In this document: positions 14,470-33,790 of the stretch, piece by piece | Layout: each line of letters opens with the position of its first letter | How positions within the stretch are numbered: the first letter of the stretch is position 1 | The notes under the pieces: generated by a model | Told to the model about the DNA's origin: nothing | The model's input: the letters and a program-made list of their open reading frames with translations, nothing else | Database searches by the model: none | Made by a program: the position numbers and the translations under genes | Origin: Candidatus Kerfeldbacteria bacterium | Lineage (GTDB): Bacteria; Patescibacteriota; Patescibacteriia; SBBC01 | Reading direction: 5' to 3' | Length of the DNA stretch: 34,553 nt | Assembly: GCA_016204585.1 (NCBI GenBank) | Contig: JACQKH010000038.1 | Location: 1 to 34,553 of the forward strand

Positions 14470-14592
14470 ATGTCTAACCGCCGCTTCGCTCCGATCATCC
14501 TCCTTGCACATACCGGGATCGCTCATGATGGCGCCAAGGCCTCAGTAATCGTCGAACAGCACCTGACACGATGGAGCCGAAAGCATGTCTAA
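14470..14592 (+). CDS. Candidate 40-aa ORF translationally coupled to nusB
   Basis: [40 protein letters not shown], overlapping the nusB start as ATGTCTAA. Confidence 0.35.
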
Positions 14593-15034
14593 CCGACACT
14601 TGGCGCGCACCGTCGCCATGCAGACGCTCTACGAATGGGATTTCAACGATCGTAAGCAGAACCTGGCGGAGCTGCTAAAGCACAACCTAAAAGAATTCGC
14701 GCCGGATTTCAACGACGGCGGTTTTTCCGAGCGGATCGTCAAGGGCGTCGAGCAGAATCAAGCGGAGATTGACAAGGTCGTTGAGCGCTACGCGCCGGAA
14801 TGGCCGATCCAACAAATCACCATCGTTGATCGAAACATCTTACGCATCGGCGTGTTCGAGCTGAAGTTCGTCAAGGACATTCCCCCGAAAGTCGCGATCA
14901 ATGAGGCGATTGAACTGGCCAAGTCCTTCGGTGGAGAATCGTCCGGCCGCTTCGTCAACGGTGTGCTGGGAGCGGTTTACAAGGATATGGGCGGACTGCC
15001 GCCAGCGAAAGAACGCGGCTCGGTAGCTCGTTAG
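14585..15034 (+). CDS. nusB: Transcription antitermination factor NusB
   Basis: [18 protein letters not shown]...[50 protein letters not shown]. Confidence 0.96.
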
Positions 15035-15507: not shown

Positions 15508-16209
15508 ATGCCCGACCTAACTGTCTACGAACAACTCGAATCGGACCTCGGTTTTAAATTCGCCAACCGCGATCTCCTCATTCAGGCCTTCACCCACCGA
15601 TCGTACTTGAATGAAAACCCCGGTCATCGGATCGGTCACAATGAACGCTTGGAGTTCCTGGGCGACGCGGTGCTCGAGCTGGTCGTGACCGAACATCTAT
15701 ACCACAACTTTCCGAATCCGGAGGGAGAGCTGACAAATCTCCGGGCCAGCCTGGTCAACGCCAAAACTCTCGGCGACATCGCCTTGGCGCTTAATTTCGA
15801 TAACTACCTTTTGCTCTCGCGCGGGGAAGCTAAGGACGCGAACTCCAAGGCCCGCCATTCCATCCTGGCCAACTCGGTGGAAGCACTAATCGGCGCGCTT
15901 TACCTCGATCAAGGACTGACGGCCGCCAAGAAGTTCATCGATTCTCAGGTCCTGACCAAACTGCCGGAAATTCTGGCCAAACAGGCCTACCGAGATCCGA
16001 AGAGCACCTTTCAGGAAATGGCCCAGAAGTACTCGAACATTACGCCGTCGTATAAGGTCTTGGCTGAGTGGGGGCCGGATCATGATAAGCATTTCCGGGT
16101 GGCGGTCAACCTCGAGACCGAGGAAATCGCCGTCGGCGAAGGACCGTCAAAGCAAGAAGCGCAAGTGGCCGCCGCGACCAACGCGCTCCGGGCGAAGGGA
16201 TGGGAATGA
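15508..16209 (+). CDS. rnc: Ribonuclease III
   Basis: NERLEFLGDAVLELVVTEHLY, ANSVEALIGALYLDQG, C-terminal dsRBD. Confidence 0.97.
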   Translation: MPDLTVYEQLESDLGFKFANRDLLIQAFTHRSYLNENPGHRIGHNERLEFLGDAVLELVVTEHLYHNFPNPEGELTNLRASLVNAKTLGDIALALNFDNYLLLSRGEAKDANSKARHSILANSVEALIGALYLDQGLTAAKKFIDSQVLTKLPEILAKQAYRDPKSTFQEMAQKYSNITPSYKVLAEWGPDHDKHFRVAVNLETEEIAVGEGPSKQEAQVAAATNALRAKGWE

Positions 16210-20433: not shown

Positions 20434-20862
20434 GTGGCAATGATTAACGCCGCCGGATTTATTATGGAAACATCAAGAACTCTTAGAAAGGATATATTTG
20501 AAAAGGAATTATCATATCAATTGGTTGGTATTTTCTTTAGCGTGCAAGAACAATTGGGAAGATATTGCCGGGAGATTCAATACTGTGATGCGATTGAACA
20601 AGAATTGAAAATACGAAAATTTCATTATCAACGAGAATATTCCTTTCCCGTTGCCGGTAGATTATCGAATCGAGTTGACTTTCTCATTCCCGGTCGTGTG
20701 ATTATCGACGTCAAGGCCAAACCATTCGTCGAACGGGAGGATTACGACCAGATGCGCAGGTATCTTCAGAGTGCGAATATCAGACTTGGAATGATTGTCA
20801 ATTTCCGAAATAAATTTCTTCTACCAAAACGGGTTCTAAACCCTGCTTACGAACCACATTAG
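20434..20862 (+). CDS. GxxExxY family protein
   Basis: GRYCREIQYCDAIEQELKIRKFHYQREYSFPV...RVDFLIPGRVIIDVKA. Confidence 0.85.
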   Translation: MAMINAAGFIMETSRTLRKDIFEKELSYQLVGIFFSVQEQLGRYCREIQYCDAIEQELKIRKFHYQREYSFPVAGRLSNRVDFLIPGRVIIDVKAKPFVEREDYDQMRRYLQSANIRLGMIVNFRNKFLLPKRVLNPAYEPH

Positions 20863-20979
20863 CGCTATTCGCATAATTCGCATCTTTCGTAGATTCGTAC
20901 TATACCTGTTGACGTTGAGATAGGAAAAATGGTAAAGAGCGGTCAGGAGCAGTTCGCTGAAAACTGAATAGTTTCCGTG

Positions 20980-21016
20980 TCAGCCCGCACCGCACTGGGT
21001 GTGGGGCAGGCCGGGA
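20980..21016 (+). promoter_or_regulatory. Cassette stem-loop A
   Basis: tcagcccgcacc gcactg ggtgtggggcaggccggg. Confidence 0.55.
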
Positions 21017-21036
21017 GAGATAGTTGGAGGATCACC

Positions 21037-21219
21037 ATGAGCATCTACGATGCCTACCTGCCTCGTGACCCAGAGGAACAGAGGCAGTTTCTCGAGGCGC
21101 TCCGGATGTTGGTGAATCACTCGCCCAGCGAGGCGGTCGCAGATATTTTTCGCTCAGCCTACGGCGGGGCGAAAATCTGGCAGGTCATTCCAGGAGATAC
21201 ATCCGCCTCAGCCCCGTAA
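21037..21219 (+). CDS. Small hypothetical protein (60 aa)
   Basis: ggaggatcaccATG; MSIYDAYLPRDPEEQRQFLEALRMLVNHSPSEAVADIFRSAYGG. Confidence 0.65.
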   Translation: MSIYDAYLPRDPEEQRQFLEALRMLVNHSPSEAVADIFRSAYGGAKIWQVIPGDTSASAP

Positions 21220-21256
21220 AATCGCAGAAGCGATCACGGGGCAAGCTGGAAGCTGA
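21208..21256 (+). promoter_or_regulatory. Cassette stem-loop B
   Basis: tcagccccgtaaaatcgcagaagcgatcacggggcaagctggaagctga; 44/49 identical to E. Confidence 0.85.
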
Positions 21257-21280
21257 ATCTTTCAACCAAAGGAGTTCACG

Positions 21281-21439
21281 ATGAATCCTGAAGAGGTCGC
21301 CTTGTGGCTGATCGTCGTCGGCGCAACAATGATCACTGCCGTCCTAACACTGTTGTGGCGTCGCAAGCGCGGTCCGTGGTTTCTCTTTCCACCGGCATGG
21401 CTGATCGTGATCGGAGCTGCACTGGCTCTTCAGGGCTGA
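21281..21439 (+). CDS. Small membrane protein (52 aa), below the ORF-track cutoff
   Basis: aaaggagttcacgATG; MNPEEVALWLIVVGATMITAVLTLLWRRKRGPWFLFPPAWLIVIGAALALQG*. Confidence 0.65.
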   Translation: MNPEEVALWLIVVGATMITAVLTLLWRRKRGPWFLFPPAWLIVIGAALALQG

Positions 21440-21448
21440 GAAGTTCCG

Positions 21449-21480
21449 CGTCAGCTATAAGCCGATGTAAGTACATTCGG
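21449..21480 (+). promoter_or_regulatory. Cassette stem-loop C (diverged)
   Basis: gtcagctataagccgatgtaagtacattcgg. Confidence 0.45.
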
Positions 21481-21487
21481 AGGATAC

Positions 21488-21706
21488 ATGAGAAAGAATC
21501 GTCCTTCGACGCACTCGGTCGGTGATGACGTTACGTTCTTGGAAAGGCGTTACCGTCCTGGCGGTCGGGTCAGACGTCGATGCGGCGCAGTCGGAGAGAT
21601 CATCACGATTGACGCCCGTACCGTTAACGTCTACGTGATCGAGGCCGGGGTCCGAACCGATCGACGGGAGACGTGGAACCTTGGAGACGTTACCTTGATC
21701 ACCTAG
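21488..21706 (+). CDS. Small basic protein (72 aa), possible SH3/KOW-like
   Basis: cggaggatacATG; SVGDDVTFLERRYRPGGRVRRRCGAVGEIITIDARTVNVYVIEAG. Confidence 0.6.
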   Translation: MRKNRPSTHSVGDDVTFLERRYRPGGRVRRRCGAVGEIITIDARTVNVYVIEAGVRTDRRETWNLGDVTLIT

Positions 21707-21742
21707 TTGTGTACCCTGGCGAATCAAGGACATTGAGTCCGT

Positions 21743-21788
21743 ACCAGCCCCCGCATTGCGTTTGAGTGCGGGATAGGCTGGAAGTTGA
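21743..21788 (+). promoter_or_regulatory. Cassette stem-loop D
   Basis: ccagcccccgca ttgcgtttgag tgcgggataggctgg aagttgac. Confidence 0.65.
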
Positions 21789-21802
21789 CAAGGGGGGTTA
21801 GC

Positions 21803-21970
21803 ATGTCGAAGCGAAAGTCACGGAAGCGACCGTCGAAGGCTGCGAAAAGACCGTTGAGGTCCATGCGAGGAACTGGCCTCGCGCGTTACATCGAGGTGAA
21901 GCGGCTCGTTCGGCAGATCCCGCCTGAAGTCGTCAAGCAGATCATCCAGGAGGAATTAGATCGAATCTGA
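21803..21970 (+). CDS. Small basic protein (55 aa)
   Basis: aaggggggttagcATG; MSKRKSRKRPSKAAKRPLRSMRGTGLARYIEVKRLVRQIPPEVVKQIIQEELDRI. Confidence 0.6.
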   Translation: MSKRKSRKRPSKAAKRPLRSMRGTGLARYIEVKRLVRQIPPEVVKQIIQEELDRI

Positions 21971-21982
21971 AGCGAATCCACA

Positions 21983-22031
21983 TCAGCCCCGTAGAATCGC
22001 AGGAGCGAACACGGGGCAGGCCGGAAGCTGA
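21983..22031 (+). promoter_or_regulatory. Cassette stem-loop E
   Basis: tcagccccgtagaatcgcaggagcgaacacggggcaggccggaagctga. Confidence 0.85.
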
Positions 22032-22065
22032 CACACCTACAAGTTTTCGAAGGAGGAGTCGGAAG

Positions 22066-22239
22066 ATGGGAAAGCAGCCACTGCAAGACGCGCTTCGGGA
22101 GTGCGTATGAAAAGAAGTTAAAGCGTACTTCAGGGAGCCGGACGTGTGGATGCAACGGTACCTTCGCTACGCGCTGCAACGCCTTGTGCGTGAAGGCAAG
22201 TTGAAGTTGCCGAGAACGCGGGCTCGGCAGAAGAAGTAA
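22066..22239 (+). pseudogene. Small ORF interrupted by one in-frame TGA (22108-22110)
   Basis: gaaggaggagtcggaagATG; MGKQPLQDALRECV*KEVKAYFREPDVWMQRYLRYALQRLVREGKLKLPRTRARQKK*. Confidence 0.55.
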
Positions 22240-22243
22240 CCGA

Positions 22244-22288
22244 GTCAGCCCCGTACCAGGTTGGGTGCGGGGCAAGCTGGAGGCTGAC
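22244..22288 (+). promoter_or_regulatory. Cassette stem-loop F
   Basis: gtcagccccgtaccaggttgggtgcggggcaagctggaggctgac. Confidence 0.8.
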
Positions 22289-22302
22289 AAAGGAGGTGTG
22301 TA

Positions 22303-22890
22303 ATGAGGCAAAGCGAAGTGTTGGATTTCTACGACGAAGATGTCCACGCAATACGGCAGCTGGTCACGATTATGGACGGGCTCGGTGGTGACTTCTGGCG
22401 GCAGGAACCAGAGGGGCACTTCGGGCCGGGCGAGGAGTTCGTACACCTTGTCCAGTCTGGCCGGTTTGCCTGCCGGTTCATCCGCGAGCAGCTCGGGCTC
22501 GATCCGCCGACCGAGCTTGAGCCGTACTTCCAGCGCGCCGCCTTCAACCACGCCGAGCTGACCAAGCTCAACCTGCGCGGCGCGCGTACCGTTCGCGGCC
22601 AGCACAACAGAAGCTGCATCGCGTTCATTGACTGGTTGAATGACGAACTCCAGACGATTCGGGGACTGATTGACGGCATCCCCGAAGATCGCTACGGCGA
22701 CACCGTCTCGCACCCGCTGGTGCACATGGTCGGACCAACCGGCGAGGTCCTGGCGCGGATGTTCGCTCGCCACTGGCCGTATCACCTCGGTCAGATCACC
22801 GAAGCGATGAAGTCGGCCGGCTTCCGCGAGCACGTCCCGTTCCTGCTGCACTTCGGGAGGTTCGAAGAAGTTTCAGTGAAGGAGGAATGA
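22303..22890 (+). CDS. DinB/YfiT-like four-helix putative metal-binding protein
   Basis: aaaggaggtgtgtaATG; C-terminal HWPYHLGQITEAMKSAG resembles the DinB HxxYHxGQI motif. Confidence 0.65.
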   Translation: MRQSEVLDFYDEDVHAIRQLVTIMDGLGGDFWRQEPEGHFGPGEEFVHLVQSGRFACRFIREQLGLDPPTELEPYFQRAAFNHAELTKLNLRGARTVRGQHNRSCIAFIDWLNDELQTIRGLIDGIPEDRYGDTVSHPLVHMVGPTGEVLARMFARHWPYHLGQITEAMKSAGFREHVPFLLHFGRFEEVSVKEE

Positions 22891-22893
22891 TCG

Positions 22894-23142
22894 ATGGCCG
22901 GACGGAAGAAGCCGAAGAGAAAAGTCACCCGCATCATTCGACGCGCCATCCAACAGTCGCGACCCGAGGTCGTGGAGCGAATCGCGCGGGCAGTAGAGAA
23001 AGATGGCTTCAGGGGTGCCGTTCGTGCGGGCGACAAGAAGCTTCGTCGCATCTCGCAGGCGGCCAGGCAGCACGGCATCACGTCGCTGGAACAGGCGCGA
23101 GTCAAGCGCAAGAAGTTGCGGGCAAAGAAGCGCGGCCGCTAG
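22894..23142 (+). CDS. Small highly basic protein (82 aa)
   Basis: gaaggaggaatgatcgATG; MAGRKKPKRKVTRIIRRAIQQSRPEVVERIARAVEKDGFRGAVRAG. Confidence 0.6.
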   Translation: MAGRKKPKRKVTRIIRRAIQQSRPEVVERIARAVEKDGFRGAVRAGDKKLRRISQAARQHGITSLEQARVKRKKLRAKKRGR

Positions 23143-23175
23143 CCCCGAGGAGGATTGATCGATTGAAAGAAAGGG

Positions 23176-23287
23176 CTCCCCGCCCCCTGTCACCCTGAGA
23201 CGAAGTCGAAGGGTCTCCAACAAACTGCGGTTTGCGTGGAGATCCCACGCTCCGCTCGGGATGACAGGAGGGGCGGGGAGTTTTTAA
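23176..23287 (+). terminator. Large inverted repeat ending in a T-tract, with inner CCCTGAG.CGAAGTCGAAGGG-type repeat
   Basis: ctccccgccccctgtca...tgacaggaggggcggggagttttt. Confidence 0.75.
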
Positions 23288-23444: not shown

Positions 23445-24650
23445 TTAGAACACCGCCAAGTGCGGATTAGCTGACGTGACGCGGTAGACTTCCTCGATGG
23501 CGGTAATTCCCGCCTTGGCTTTGGCCAGACCGTCATCGCGCAGGGTTTTCATGCCCTTGGCCCGCGCCGCTCTAGTGATTACGTCATACGAGGCGTGGCC
23601 AGTAATGAAGTTTCTAATCTCGTCGTCCGGCTCTAGCAGCTCAAAAATGCCGGTCCGTCCCAAATATCCGCTCATCCCGCACTGGTCGCAACCCTTGGCG
23701 CGGTATAGCGTGGCGTCGTCGCCCGTTAAACCGAGTTCTTTTCGCAGTTCACTCGACGGCTGGTACGCTTCTCGACAAGTCTGGCAGACTATGCGCACCA
23801 GCCGCTGGGCCAGCACGCCGATGGTGGAGGAAGCGATCAGCACCGGTTCCACGCCCATGTCCGTCAGCCGCGCTAGGGCGCCGATCGAGTCGTTGGTGTG
23901 GAGGGTGGTAAAAACCAGGTGGCCGGTCAAGGCGGCGCGAACGGCAATTTCTCCCGTTTCCGTGTCACGGATCTCGCCGACCAGGATGATGTCCGGATCT
24001 TGCCGCAGCAGGGCGCGGAGGCCCGAGGCAAAAGTCAGCCCGACGTCCGGATCAATTTGGGTCTGGCGGATGAACGGCAGTTGATACTCGACGGGATCTT
24101 CCAGGGTGGTGATGTTTTTTTCGACTGAGTTGATAATACTGAGGGCGGAATAAAGCGTGGTGGTTTTTCCCGATCCGTTCGGGCCGGTGACGTAGATAAC
24201 GCCGTAAGGACTTTTAATCATTTTATTGAAGGCTTCCAGGATGACCGGGTCCATTCCGAGTTGTTCGAGTCCGAAGCTGACCGCGGATTTATCAAGCAGG
24301 CGCAGGGAAACATTTTCCCCGAAGAGAGTCGGAAAAGTTGAGACGCGGACGTCAATGACGCGATCCTCAACGGGCAAGTGAAATCTTCCTTCCTGCGGTT
24401 TGCGTCGTTCGGTGATGTCGAGCTCGGCCAGGACTTTGACGCGCGACACGATCGATTCGAGGAGGGACAGCGGGTGTTTTTCAACCTCGCGGAGGATGCC
24501 GTCAATGCGAAAGCGGACGCGGACAATATTTCCTTCCGGTTCGATGTGGACGTCCGAAGCCCGGTTGGTAGCCCCGAGCTGGATAATCCGCGTTAGCAGC
24601 TGGATGATGACGCCGGAGCCGCTTTGGTCGTCTTCTTGGCGTTTGGCCAT
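23445..24650 (-). CDS. GspE/PilB-type type II secretion / type IV pilus assembly ATPase
   Basis: GPNGSGKTTTLYSAL, LEDPVEYQ, LLRQDPDIILVGEIRDTETGEIAVRAALTGHLVFTTLHTND, tetracysteine CQTC...CDQC. Confidence 0.95.
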   Translation of the reverse strand: MAKRQEDDQSGSGVIIQLLTRIIQLGATNRASDVHIEPEGNIVRVRFRIDGILREVEKHPLSLLESIVSRVKVLAELDITERRKPQEGRFHLPVEDRVIDVRVSTFPTLFGENVSLRLLDKSAVSFGLEQLGMDPVILEAFNKMIKSPYGVIYVTGPNGSGKTTTLYSALSIINSVEKNITTLEDPVEYQLPFIRQTQIDPDVGLTFASGLRALLRQDPDIILVGEIRDTETGEIAVRAALTGHLVFTTLHTNDSIGALARLTDMGVEPVLIASSTIGVLAQRLVRIVCQTCREAYQPSSELRKELGLTGDDATLYRAKGCDQCGMSGYLGRTGIFELLEPDDEIRNFITGHASYDVITRAARAKGMKTLRDDGLAKAKAGITAIEEVYRVTSANPHLAVF

Positions 24651-24706
24651 GGATGTATTGTATGGCGTTGCGACGCTGAAGGCAACCTCTGCGCGCGGTG
24701 GGTTAA

Positions 24707-24784
24707 CCCCGTTAGAGAGTCCCTTTAATGACTCTCTTTTGGTAGATGAGCGTTCGTGGTTTTTCATGCGGCTCTCTAACGGGG
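24707..24784. mobile_element. MITE-like element, family A copy 2 (78 bp)
   Basis: ccccgttagagagtccctttaatgactctcttttggtagatgagcgttcgtggtttttcatgcggctctctaacgggg. Confidence 0.85.
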
Positions 24785-25990: not shown

Positions 25991-26590
25991 ATGACTCAAC
26001 GCGCCATTGATGGACCATTTGTATACTTCGTGACCGCCAACGTCCAGAACCGACGGTGGTTTTTTGTCACTTCCGGACGAGCGGCCGAGCTGGGTCAAGC
26101 CATCCAGACGTGCTGTCGGATGAAGAACTTCGATCTTCTGGCCTACTGCATCCTGCCGAATCACGTTCATCTTCTGGTGAGGAAACGTGACCTTGGTGAA
26201 TCTAACAGCGCACAATGCACGCTGGGCAGTTCTTCCAACCTGCCACAACGCACTCTGGAGAGAGTGCGTTGTGGACGAGGGCGCACAGCAAGACTTCCGC
26301 AAACCATCTTCCTTTTCCCATATCGTCGACTCTCTAGTCGGCGATCCCCGGCAGGAAAGAAGCGGTTCACTTTGTCAGATCTGATGCGCTCAATCAAAGG
26401 GACGTTCTCTCGATCTCTTCCAAAGGGAAAGTTCTGGCAACACCGTTCAAACTTTCGTATTGTGGAGACCGAAGCGTACCTGTCAAACGTCGTTGAGTAC
26501 ATTCTGCATAACTACCGAAAGATGAATCTTGACGAAAGGTATGGGAAGTCACCCTATATATTCCTGGATTGGAAACAATTTGATCAATGA
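25991..26590 (+). CDS. REP-associated-type Y1 (HUH) transposase, IS200-like
   Basis: FVYFVTANVQNRRWFF, LLAYCILPNHVHLLVRK, WQHRSNFRIVETEAYLSNVVEYILHNYRK. Confidence 0.85.
   Translation: MTQRAIDGPFVYFVTANVQNRRWFFVTSGRAAELGQAIQTCCRMKNFDLLAYCILPNHVHLLVRKRDLGESNSAQCTLGSSSNLPQRTLERVRCGRGRTARLPQTIFLFPYRRLSSRRSPAGKKRFTLSDLMRSIKGTFSRSLPKGKFWQHRSNFRIVETEAYLSNVVEYILHNYRKMNLDERYGKSPYIFLDWKQFDQ
26243..26274. repeat. Perfect 14-bp-stem hairpin inside the Y1 transposase gene
   Basis: ccacaacgcactct ggag agagtgcgttgtgg. Confidence 0.9.
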
Positions 26591-32525: not shown

Positions 32526-33236
32526 TCAGCGAATGCGCAGCTTTGCCAGCGCTTCTCTCGCCGCGGCATTTGAGGCAGCCTTCTTATTGTGCCCCTCGCC
32601 TTCGGCCAACAGATGGTTGCGGACATACACGCCCATCACGAAAACTGGGTTGTTGCTTGGACCGAATGTCCGTACCACCTCATACCGCGGGATAGCGTTT
32701 AGGCTTTTCCGAGCGTAATCCTCGAGGCGTTGCTTGGCGCTGACACCTTCAGCCCCACGGGCGGTGAACTCTTCCAGCCGAGGATCATACAAGCTCCGTA
32801 AGAAACTATTGACTAGTTCGTACCCTTGGTCGAGAAACATTGCACCGACCAGGGCCTCGAATGTCTCGGCTAGCATCCGTGAGGAGACTGTTTTCATCAC
32901 CCGTGCATCGCGGAGAAGGTAGTCGCCCAGATTCAGATCCCTGGCAATCGACGCGAGTATCGGCTCAGAAACGAGTCGGCCGAAAATATCGTGTAGCCGA
33001 CCCGGTTTCGCCGATCGCAAGTCGATGACGACCATCGAAGCAACAACGCACCCCAGCACTCGATCCCCAAGAAACTCAAGACCTTCGTTGGATGAAGACA
33101 TCTTTTCACGGGTGACGGAGCTGGCGACCGACGTGTGGTGGGTTATTGCCCGCAGTAGCAATCCCTGGTTGGCAAATCGTACGCCTAAACGTTCCTGGAT
33201 TTGTAAAAGAACCGTCTCTAGCTCCTTCGAATCCAT
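32526..33236 (-). CDS. Second ribonuclease III paralogue
   Basis: NEGLEFLGDRVLGCVVA, LAETFEALVGAMFLDQGYE, dsRBD-like tail NHLLAEGEGHNKKAASNAAAREALAKL; aaaggagggttgccATG at 33236. Confidence 0.9.
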   Translation of the reverse strand: MDSKELETVLLQIQERLGVRFANQGLLLRAITHHTSVASSVTREKMSSSNEGLEFLGDRVLGCVVASMVVIDLRSAKPGRLHDIFGRLVSEPILASIARDLNLGDYLLRDARVMKTVSSRMLAETFEALVGAMFLDQGYELVNSFLRSLYDPRLEEFTARGAEGVSAKQRLEDYARKSLNAIPRYEVVRTFGPSNNPVFVMGVYVRNHLLAEGEGHNKKAASNAAAREALAKLRIR

Positions 33237-33322
33237 GGCAACCCTCCTTTGCACCTCCGGATCAATCCGGGCTTGTTTAGGATCACTTCGTCGCGTCGTA
33301 GTTGCGACCGCGAACGGTCGGT

Positions 33323-33790
33323 TTATTTGATGTGACGTTTTCGCCACTCGTAGGCCGGAACAACCATCAGGTAGAACGTGGCGCCGGCCAAGACTTGGCC
33401 GATGATGATGCCGAGATTGATGCTGCCAACCAAGCGCGGCGCCCAGAACATGAAGAACGGCCGGGTGACGACCGTGTCAATCGTGTCGGCCGCGCTGTAT
33501 TCAAGCACGACGTCGCGAAACGCAAGCGCGAATGCCCTTATGCCTCGAGCGTGATTGTGGCGATGTATGAGTAGTTCACGGACAAGCGCGTAGCCGTAGT
33601 AGGCGATGGCATCCGCGACTGTCACGACGTACGCCGCCGCAATCTTGCTCCAGCTGAATCTTCCATCGAGGAACAGCGGTCGCAGCATGTTCGCCGCGTA
33701 GAGCGCGAAGAGCAGCGCCACGAGTTCCTGAGGAGCATACCGCCGAATCCACTCCCAGATTTTCTTCCGGGAGGGCAGCTTTAGATTCAT
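33323..33790 (-). CDS. Multi-pass membrane protein (155 aa)
   Basis: gggagggacgATG; several hydrophobic segments. Confidence 0.7.
   Translation of the reverse strand: MNLKLPSRKKIWEWIRRYAPQELVALLFALYAANMLRPLFLDGRFSWSKIAAAYVVTVADAIAYYGYALVRELLIHRHNHARGIRAFALAFRDVVLEYSAADTIDTVVTRPFFMFWAPRLVGSINLGIIIGQVLAGATFYLMVVPAYEWRKRHIK

Follow-up and report, generated by a model that had tools for sequence, protein, structure and literature searches.

The contig described here carries a family of structured RNA hairpins, unnamed and uncatalogued, in the spacers of an array of small genes. We regard the array as a modular accessory operon that is antiterminated and occupies a fixed slot, with an RNA control element in most spacers, an account to which we give about an even chance of being right. 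A structured RNA family is thereby linked with a hypervariable operon, and the lineage is one in which little is understood of how genes are regulated or gained.

The window is the entire contig G000:C4, 34,553 nt of a draft genome of Candidatus Kerfeldbacteria (1.04 Mb, 80 contigs, about 91% complete). The small size of this genome and of its relatives is what one would expect of Patescibacteria. Seven small open reading frames (o1 to o7) with strong Shine-Dalgarno (SD) sequences lie on one strand between two conserved genes. The left flank is a gene for a GxxExxY/PD-(D/E)XK protein (20434..20862, +; PF13366, E 7e-18; TIGR04256 above cutoff), which is kept in G002 (91% identical), a genome from a different genus in this family, and in G003, from a third genus. 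The right flank is a gene for a pilB/GspE-type ATPase (23445..24767, −), named from sequence and syntenic in G002. A REP-like long hairpin (23176..23285, +) lies at the array end, and one of the same type adjoins the G002 array.

Hairpins A (20980..21024), B (21208..21256), D (21744..21788), E (21983..22031) and F (22245..22287), all on the + strand, belong to one family. Each lies 5′ of a strong SD and ATG, and B, D, E and F coincide with or closely follow a stop codon. The pattern CAGCCCN{8,38}GGGNNARGCYGGARGYTGA had four matches in the window and none in 100 shuffles. Covariance model R1, built from the same five hairpins that it scores and run with filters off, gave them 40.7 to 56.5 bits (A, 40.7; D, 50.2; B, 53.3; E, 56.5), and the next-best match in the window scored 15.6 bits. 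Model R2, which also takes in the three G002 copies, gave 55.9 bits for B and 61.8 bits for F. Compared with 200 shuffles, B, D and F folded better than all and E better than all but 4; A, the most divergent copy, with a degenerate 3′ element, was weakly better. The array has no Rfam match at gathering score. The 44/49 identity of B and E reported in the initial annotation was reproduced, and another alignment gave 88% over 56 nt.

That annotation had listed six hairpins, A to F. Five of them stand, and the sixth, “C” (21450..21490, +), scored near noise with R2 (3.5 bits) and folds no better than shuffles (z −0.6). It is not a significant member of the family and is at best a decayed copy. 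o3 is therefore, like o7, without a good hairpin, and the statement that only the last gene lacks one was inexact. The annotation had also passed over the in-frame TGA of o5, the stop codon of o1 inside hairpin B, the promoter- and boxA-like leader before A, and the second stem with its GGA loop.

RNAalifold was applied to eight copies, five from the window and three from G002, all of which (8/8) lie in spacers on the gene strand. It gave a first stem, P1, followed immediately by a second, P2. P1 is formed by 5′ GCCCCGTA and 3′ TACGGGGC around a variable loop and has 7 to 10 pairs; P2 is a small stem, RGC-YGGAN-GCY. The element is about 45 to 50 nt long, and the spacers read stop, P1, P2, SD, ATG. 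An alternative outer pairing, TCAGC/GCTGA, competes with P2 and is as well supported, so a switch between the two pairings is possible. Folding did not show the hairpin hiding or freeing the SD in any regular way.

Slid controls pair far worse than the real alignment. Covariation is real but thin: one stem pair is altered on both sides, and column shuffles score as well as the real pairs because most stem positions are invariant. Two arrays, with eight good hairpins, are known, and covariation is therefore weak. The non-Watson-Crick cells, read on the + strand, comprise 14 G-U and 4 A-C, a small sample that favors selection of the structure on the transcript strand and not on the opposite one. 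This polarity speaks in favor of the earlier claim of selection at the RNA level. The earlier view of an operon with hairpin-bounded cistrons is partly supported, the structure looking selected on the transcript strand.

In the operon account favored here, the transcribed element would be a control point between one cistron and the next, affecting translation start, mRNA processing, or both. One specific form of this account, tentative and in our judgment rather unlikely, is a CsrA operator, in which a dimer would bridge the GGA of P2 and the GGA of the SD, repress each downstream cistron and co-regulate the operon. GGA motifs upstream of ribosome binding sites recruit CsrA/RsmE (PMC4005645), and CsrA is encoded in the genome (PF02599, 91 bits); the almost invariant P2-loop GGA, a few tens of bases 5′ of the SD, together with this gene makes the bridge a specific proposal. 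GGANG is kept in 7/8 copies while the P2 stem shifts from A-U to G-U. A GGA in the P2 position lies 24 to 43 nt before the ATG in eight of the nine leaders with a hairpin or remnant, and the SD GGA lies about 8 to 14 nt before the ATG in all leaders but that of D, where the SD is GGGG. The high-affinity loop is ANGGAX (PMC4005645), however, and the five-base P2 loop, YGGAN, has no such A. Moreover, hairpin A has no GGANG motif, CsrA does not require a strong P1 stem, and P2 is in competition with the TCAGC/GCTGA pairing. The csrA gene is located at 140-388 of another contig (L093; G000:C36), which also carries a miaA-like gene.

The hairpins might instead serve processing or stability with no ligand involved: RNase III would cut the stem that bounds each cistron, or the stem would block exonucleases, and separate small mRNAs would result. 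Stable P1 stems immediately 3′ of stop codons would suit this role, as would the two RNase III-type genes in the window, one above the family cutoff (15508-16209, +) and one just below it (32526-33347, −). A stem of 7 to 10 pairs such as P1, however, is a short substrate for RNase III. The 3′ part, ARGCYGGANGCTGA, is strongly conserved in primary sequence, which a simple block does not require, and the last two genes, o6 and o7, have no hairpin after them. This explanation is the chief alternative, though we consider it unlikely. The two RNase III-type genes are about 17 kb apart, and the one at 32526-33347 is divergent, being 34% identical to the other.

The array ORFs are all on the + strand and encode small proteins that are mostly specific to the lineage. 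o1 (21037..21219, 60 amino acids [aa]), whose stop codon lies within hairpin B, has no family match, and o2 (21281..21439, 52 aa) is membrane-like. o3 (21488..21706) encodes 72 aa, and o4 (21803..21970) encodes a basic protein of 55 aa. o6 (22303..22890, 195 aa) is weakly DinB_2-like (PF12867, E 1e-4, 23 bits against a cutoff of 24.8); a DinB-like homologue in G007 has no R1 or R2 hairpin close by. o7 (22894..23142, 82 aa) is basic and has no hairpin on either side; its N terminus resembles that of the final ORF of the G002 array, which is also basic. Besides the weak DinB_2 match and, in G002, a patatin, no convincing family was found among the array proteins.

The reading frame of o5 (22066..22239, 57 codons) is broken by a TGA at 22108-22110, and its G002 orthologue is intact. 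The two proteins are 62% identical, and over the part in common dS is 1.46 and dN is 0.28 (dN/dS about 0.2), values that indicate purifying selection on o5. The intact orthologue and this ratio point to a real protein gene, probably one decaying in the window genome. Among 381 genomes of the class, homologues besides those in the window genome and G002 were noise only (E about 0.01-0.05). The TGA corresponds to arginine in the intact homologue and could be a nonsense mutation, recoding or an assembly error.

Upstream of hairpin A, sequence comparison revealed a promoter-like TTGACG-N18-TAAAGA (20909..20938, +), found in the same slot of G003 as TTGACG-N17-TAAAGA, and a boxA-like leader, GTTCGCTGAAAACTGAATA (20952..20970, +). 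Homology of the left flank to G002 stops at 20971, just 5′ of hairpin A. The leader motifs are kept in three genera (window, G002 and G003), each with a different first gene. In G003 they follow an inserted CAP-like gene and precede yet another first gene, GNAT-like by eye and without Pfam support; the G003 contig stops about 430 nt into the array, before any hairpin. The leader includes the 13-mer TGAAAACTGAATA, and five copies of it were found across ten genomes of the order. Three of the occurrences are the slot leaders of the window, G002 and G003, and another is 144 nt upstream of the 23S rRNA in G008. The fifth is around position 1500 of the csrA contig, upstream of a long secreted-protein ORF. 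The boxA-like sequence agrees with about 8/11 positions of GYTCTTTAANA, a consensus that is gamma-proteobacterial (PMC5725501).

Its presence in the three slot leaders and in a pre-23S leader makes TGAAAACTGAATA most likely a boxA. A strict consensus promoter scan reported no promoter at 20909..20938, so we infer promoter and boxA function from conservation. BoxA helps polymerase through structured, poorly translated transcripts such as rRNA, CRISPR arrays (PMC7862264) and suhB (PMC5725501). In the operon account, transcription would begin at the promoter-like sequence and pass the boxA-like antitermination signal, which would keep RNA polymerase moving through a structure-rich message poor in long coding regions. 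The window also contains nusB (14585-15034), identified from sequence. If either the CsrA or the boxA reading is true, the lineage offers a concrete, testable post-transcriptional circuit.

The scan of relatives with the covariance model, a check proposed in the initial annotation, found extra copies in G002, three of them good (R1, 48, 36 and 26 bits; R2, 63, 57 and 50 bits). The G002 locus (L067) has the order SMC, GxxExxY gene, leader, array and pilB and is thus the same slot, with DNA similarity of 72-87% to the window on both flanks. Its array comprises an 89-aa ORF followed by genes for a patatin-like protein, a TM protein, the o5 homologue, a second TM protein and a basic protein; a decayed hairpin (10.4 bits) precedes the last gene. 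o5 is the one gene common to the two arrays, and the rest are largely different.

The hairpin 3′ of o5, F, is orthologous to H3 of G002 and 82% identical to it, whereas the hairpin 5′ of o5, E, is 66% identical to H2. The local DNA match of o5 plus F extends no further than the final bases of the hairpin (22287 in the window; L067 11224). B and E, alike at 88% including their loops, precede unrelated genes, and their similarity ends at the same GCTGA. These two ends are independent instances of a joint at the hairpin end. Because o5 keeps F and not the upstream E, a gene and its 3′ hairpin may form the moving unit, of which this is one example. Hairpin A precedes the first gene, and no array gene lies upstream of it. 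In the operon account, genes have been exchanged, apparently with their 3′ hairpins, at junctions at or near the GCTGA of the hairpin end. The earlier suggestion of a modular cassette array is partly supported by the same slot with a different gene set in G002 and by o5 with its 3′ hairpin; an integrase-driven form of it is disfavored.

Such a form would be an integron-like array, with each gene and an attC-like hairpin moved by a site-specific recombinase and the leader serving as attI. One slot holding different genes, the linkage of gene and 3′ hairpin, junctions that fall sharply where the hairpin ends, and a hairpin pair within one genome as alike as B and E would all be expected of it. 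The core boxes of attC are RYYYAAC and GTTRRRY, but no paired RYYYAAC...GTTRRRY was found: RYYYAAC is in no unit, and the P1 loop regions of F and H3 each contain a single GTTRRRY, the only ones seen. The sole tyrosine recombinase found in the genome (about 91% complete) is of XerA/XerC type, above the XerA cutoff and at 135 bits against the integron integrase cutoff of 265. Furthermore, attC acts as the bottom strand (PMC2727003), whereas the wobble polarity here favors the + strand, and the arrays are very short. This explanation is very unlikely. The XerA/XerC-type gene (L142, 1138-2094) is followed by an ORF that is LAGLIDADG-like by eye (2506-2961).

A new kind of array is also conceivable, in which units of one small gene and an RNA-active 3′ hairpin would be exchanged precisely at hairpin ends in a boxA-led chromosomal slot with no integrase, in a lineage whose genomes are very small; we consider this distinctly unlikely. 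If gene-plus-hairpin exchange is true, small genes are shuffled in this lineage without a dedicated recombinase.

The hairpin family is restricted to one lineage. In the order and in 286 genomes of the class, the exact pattern matched in the window genome only, and the covariance model found no comparable array besides that of G002 in 240 class genomes. The exact pattern found no relatives in 84,980 species genomes, where six single matches were attributed to chance from their sequence and surrounding open frames, or in viral contigs, where the one match lies within an ORF. Model matches in G000:C42, G050, G111 and others are unrelated CCCCGCACC/GGTGCGGGG hairpins and were rejected on inspection, as neither the 3′ element nor the gene context is present; a match in G004:C36 was rejected as lying in apparent protein-coding DNA. 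Hairpins of the form CCCCGCACC...GGTGCGGGG recur between genes in several class genomes (L125 301-335, L130 and L098), with three equal-scoring copies in G111, and are possibly terminator-like or a repeat family.

This distribution bears on two further explanations. REP/RAYT-type mobile hairpins inserted between genes would fit the REP-like element that closes the array and the RAYT-like Y1 transposase gene in the window (25991-26590). Dispersed copies are lacking, however: the pattern finds no other copy in the genome outside the array, and the remaining model matches elsewhere fit only the generic CCCCGCACC stem. We disfavor this explanation as the least probable of those considered. In relatives, the transposase is located elsewhere. 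It is also highly improbable that the array derives from the early region of a phage and that its hairpins are start-associated stem-loops of the kind represented by the SAS/ESAS of cluster K mycobacteriophages. That layout, an inverted repeat with a variable loop, an SD and a small gene, is very similar (PMC3203893), but the hairpin sequence differs from SAS, and the flanks are chromosomal genes kept across genera. No relatives of o3, o5 or o6 were found in 50,697 phage records, nor of o5, o6 or o7 in viral contigs, and the 13-bp GGGATAGGAGCCC core of SAS/ESAS is absent from all spacers read.

The operon account shares features with several known systems. SAS/ESAS is the closest published layout: repeated inverted repeats with a variable loop, mostly in one orientation and restricted to a single lineage, lie just 5′ of the SD sequences that serve small, functionally uncharacterized genes (PMC3203893). 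Those elements, however, have their 13-bp core, occur in phage genomes and are conserved with the downstream gene family (PMC3203893), whereas the slot here is chromosomal in three genera, its sequence is different, and the one testable hairpin follows its upstream gene. Integron arrays (attC, VCR) likewise combine a gene with a 3′ imperfect hairpin of variable tip, a conserved leader and variable genes at one locus; the present array has a structure probably kept on the top strand and is short, and it has neither an integron integrase nor attC core boxes. CsrA/RsmE leaders (PMC4005645) resemble it in a hairpin-loop GGA upstream of a GGA-bearing SD (7/8 copies), and CsrA is encoded, but here the loop, a candidate site, is a five-base YGGAN that recurs at the majority of cistrons in a single operon. 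As in boxA-antiterminated operons, a boxA-like sequence heads a structured, poorly translated transcript; here, this is a protein-coding operon of small genes, and the candidate boxA is recognized solely by its resemblance to the local pre-23S leader.
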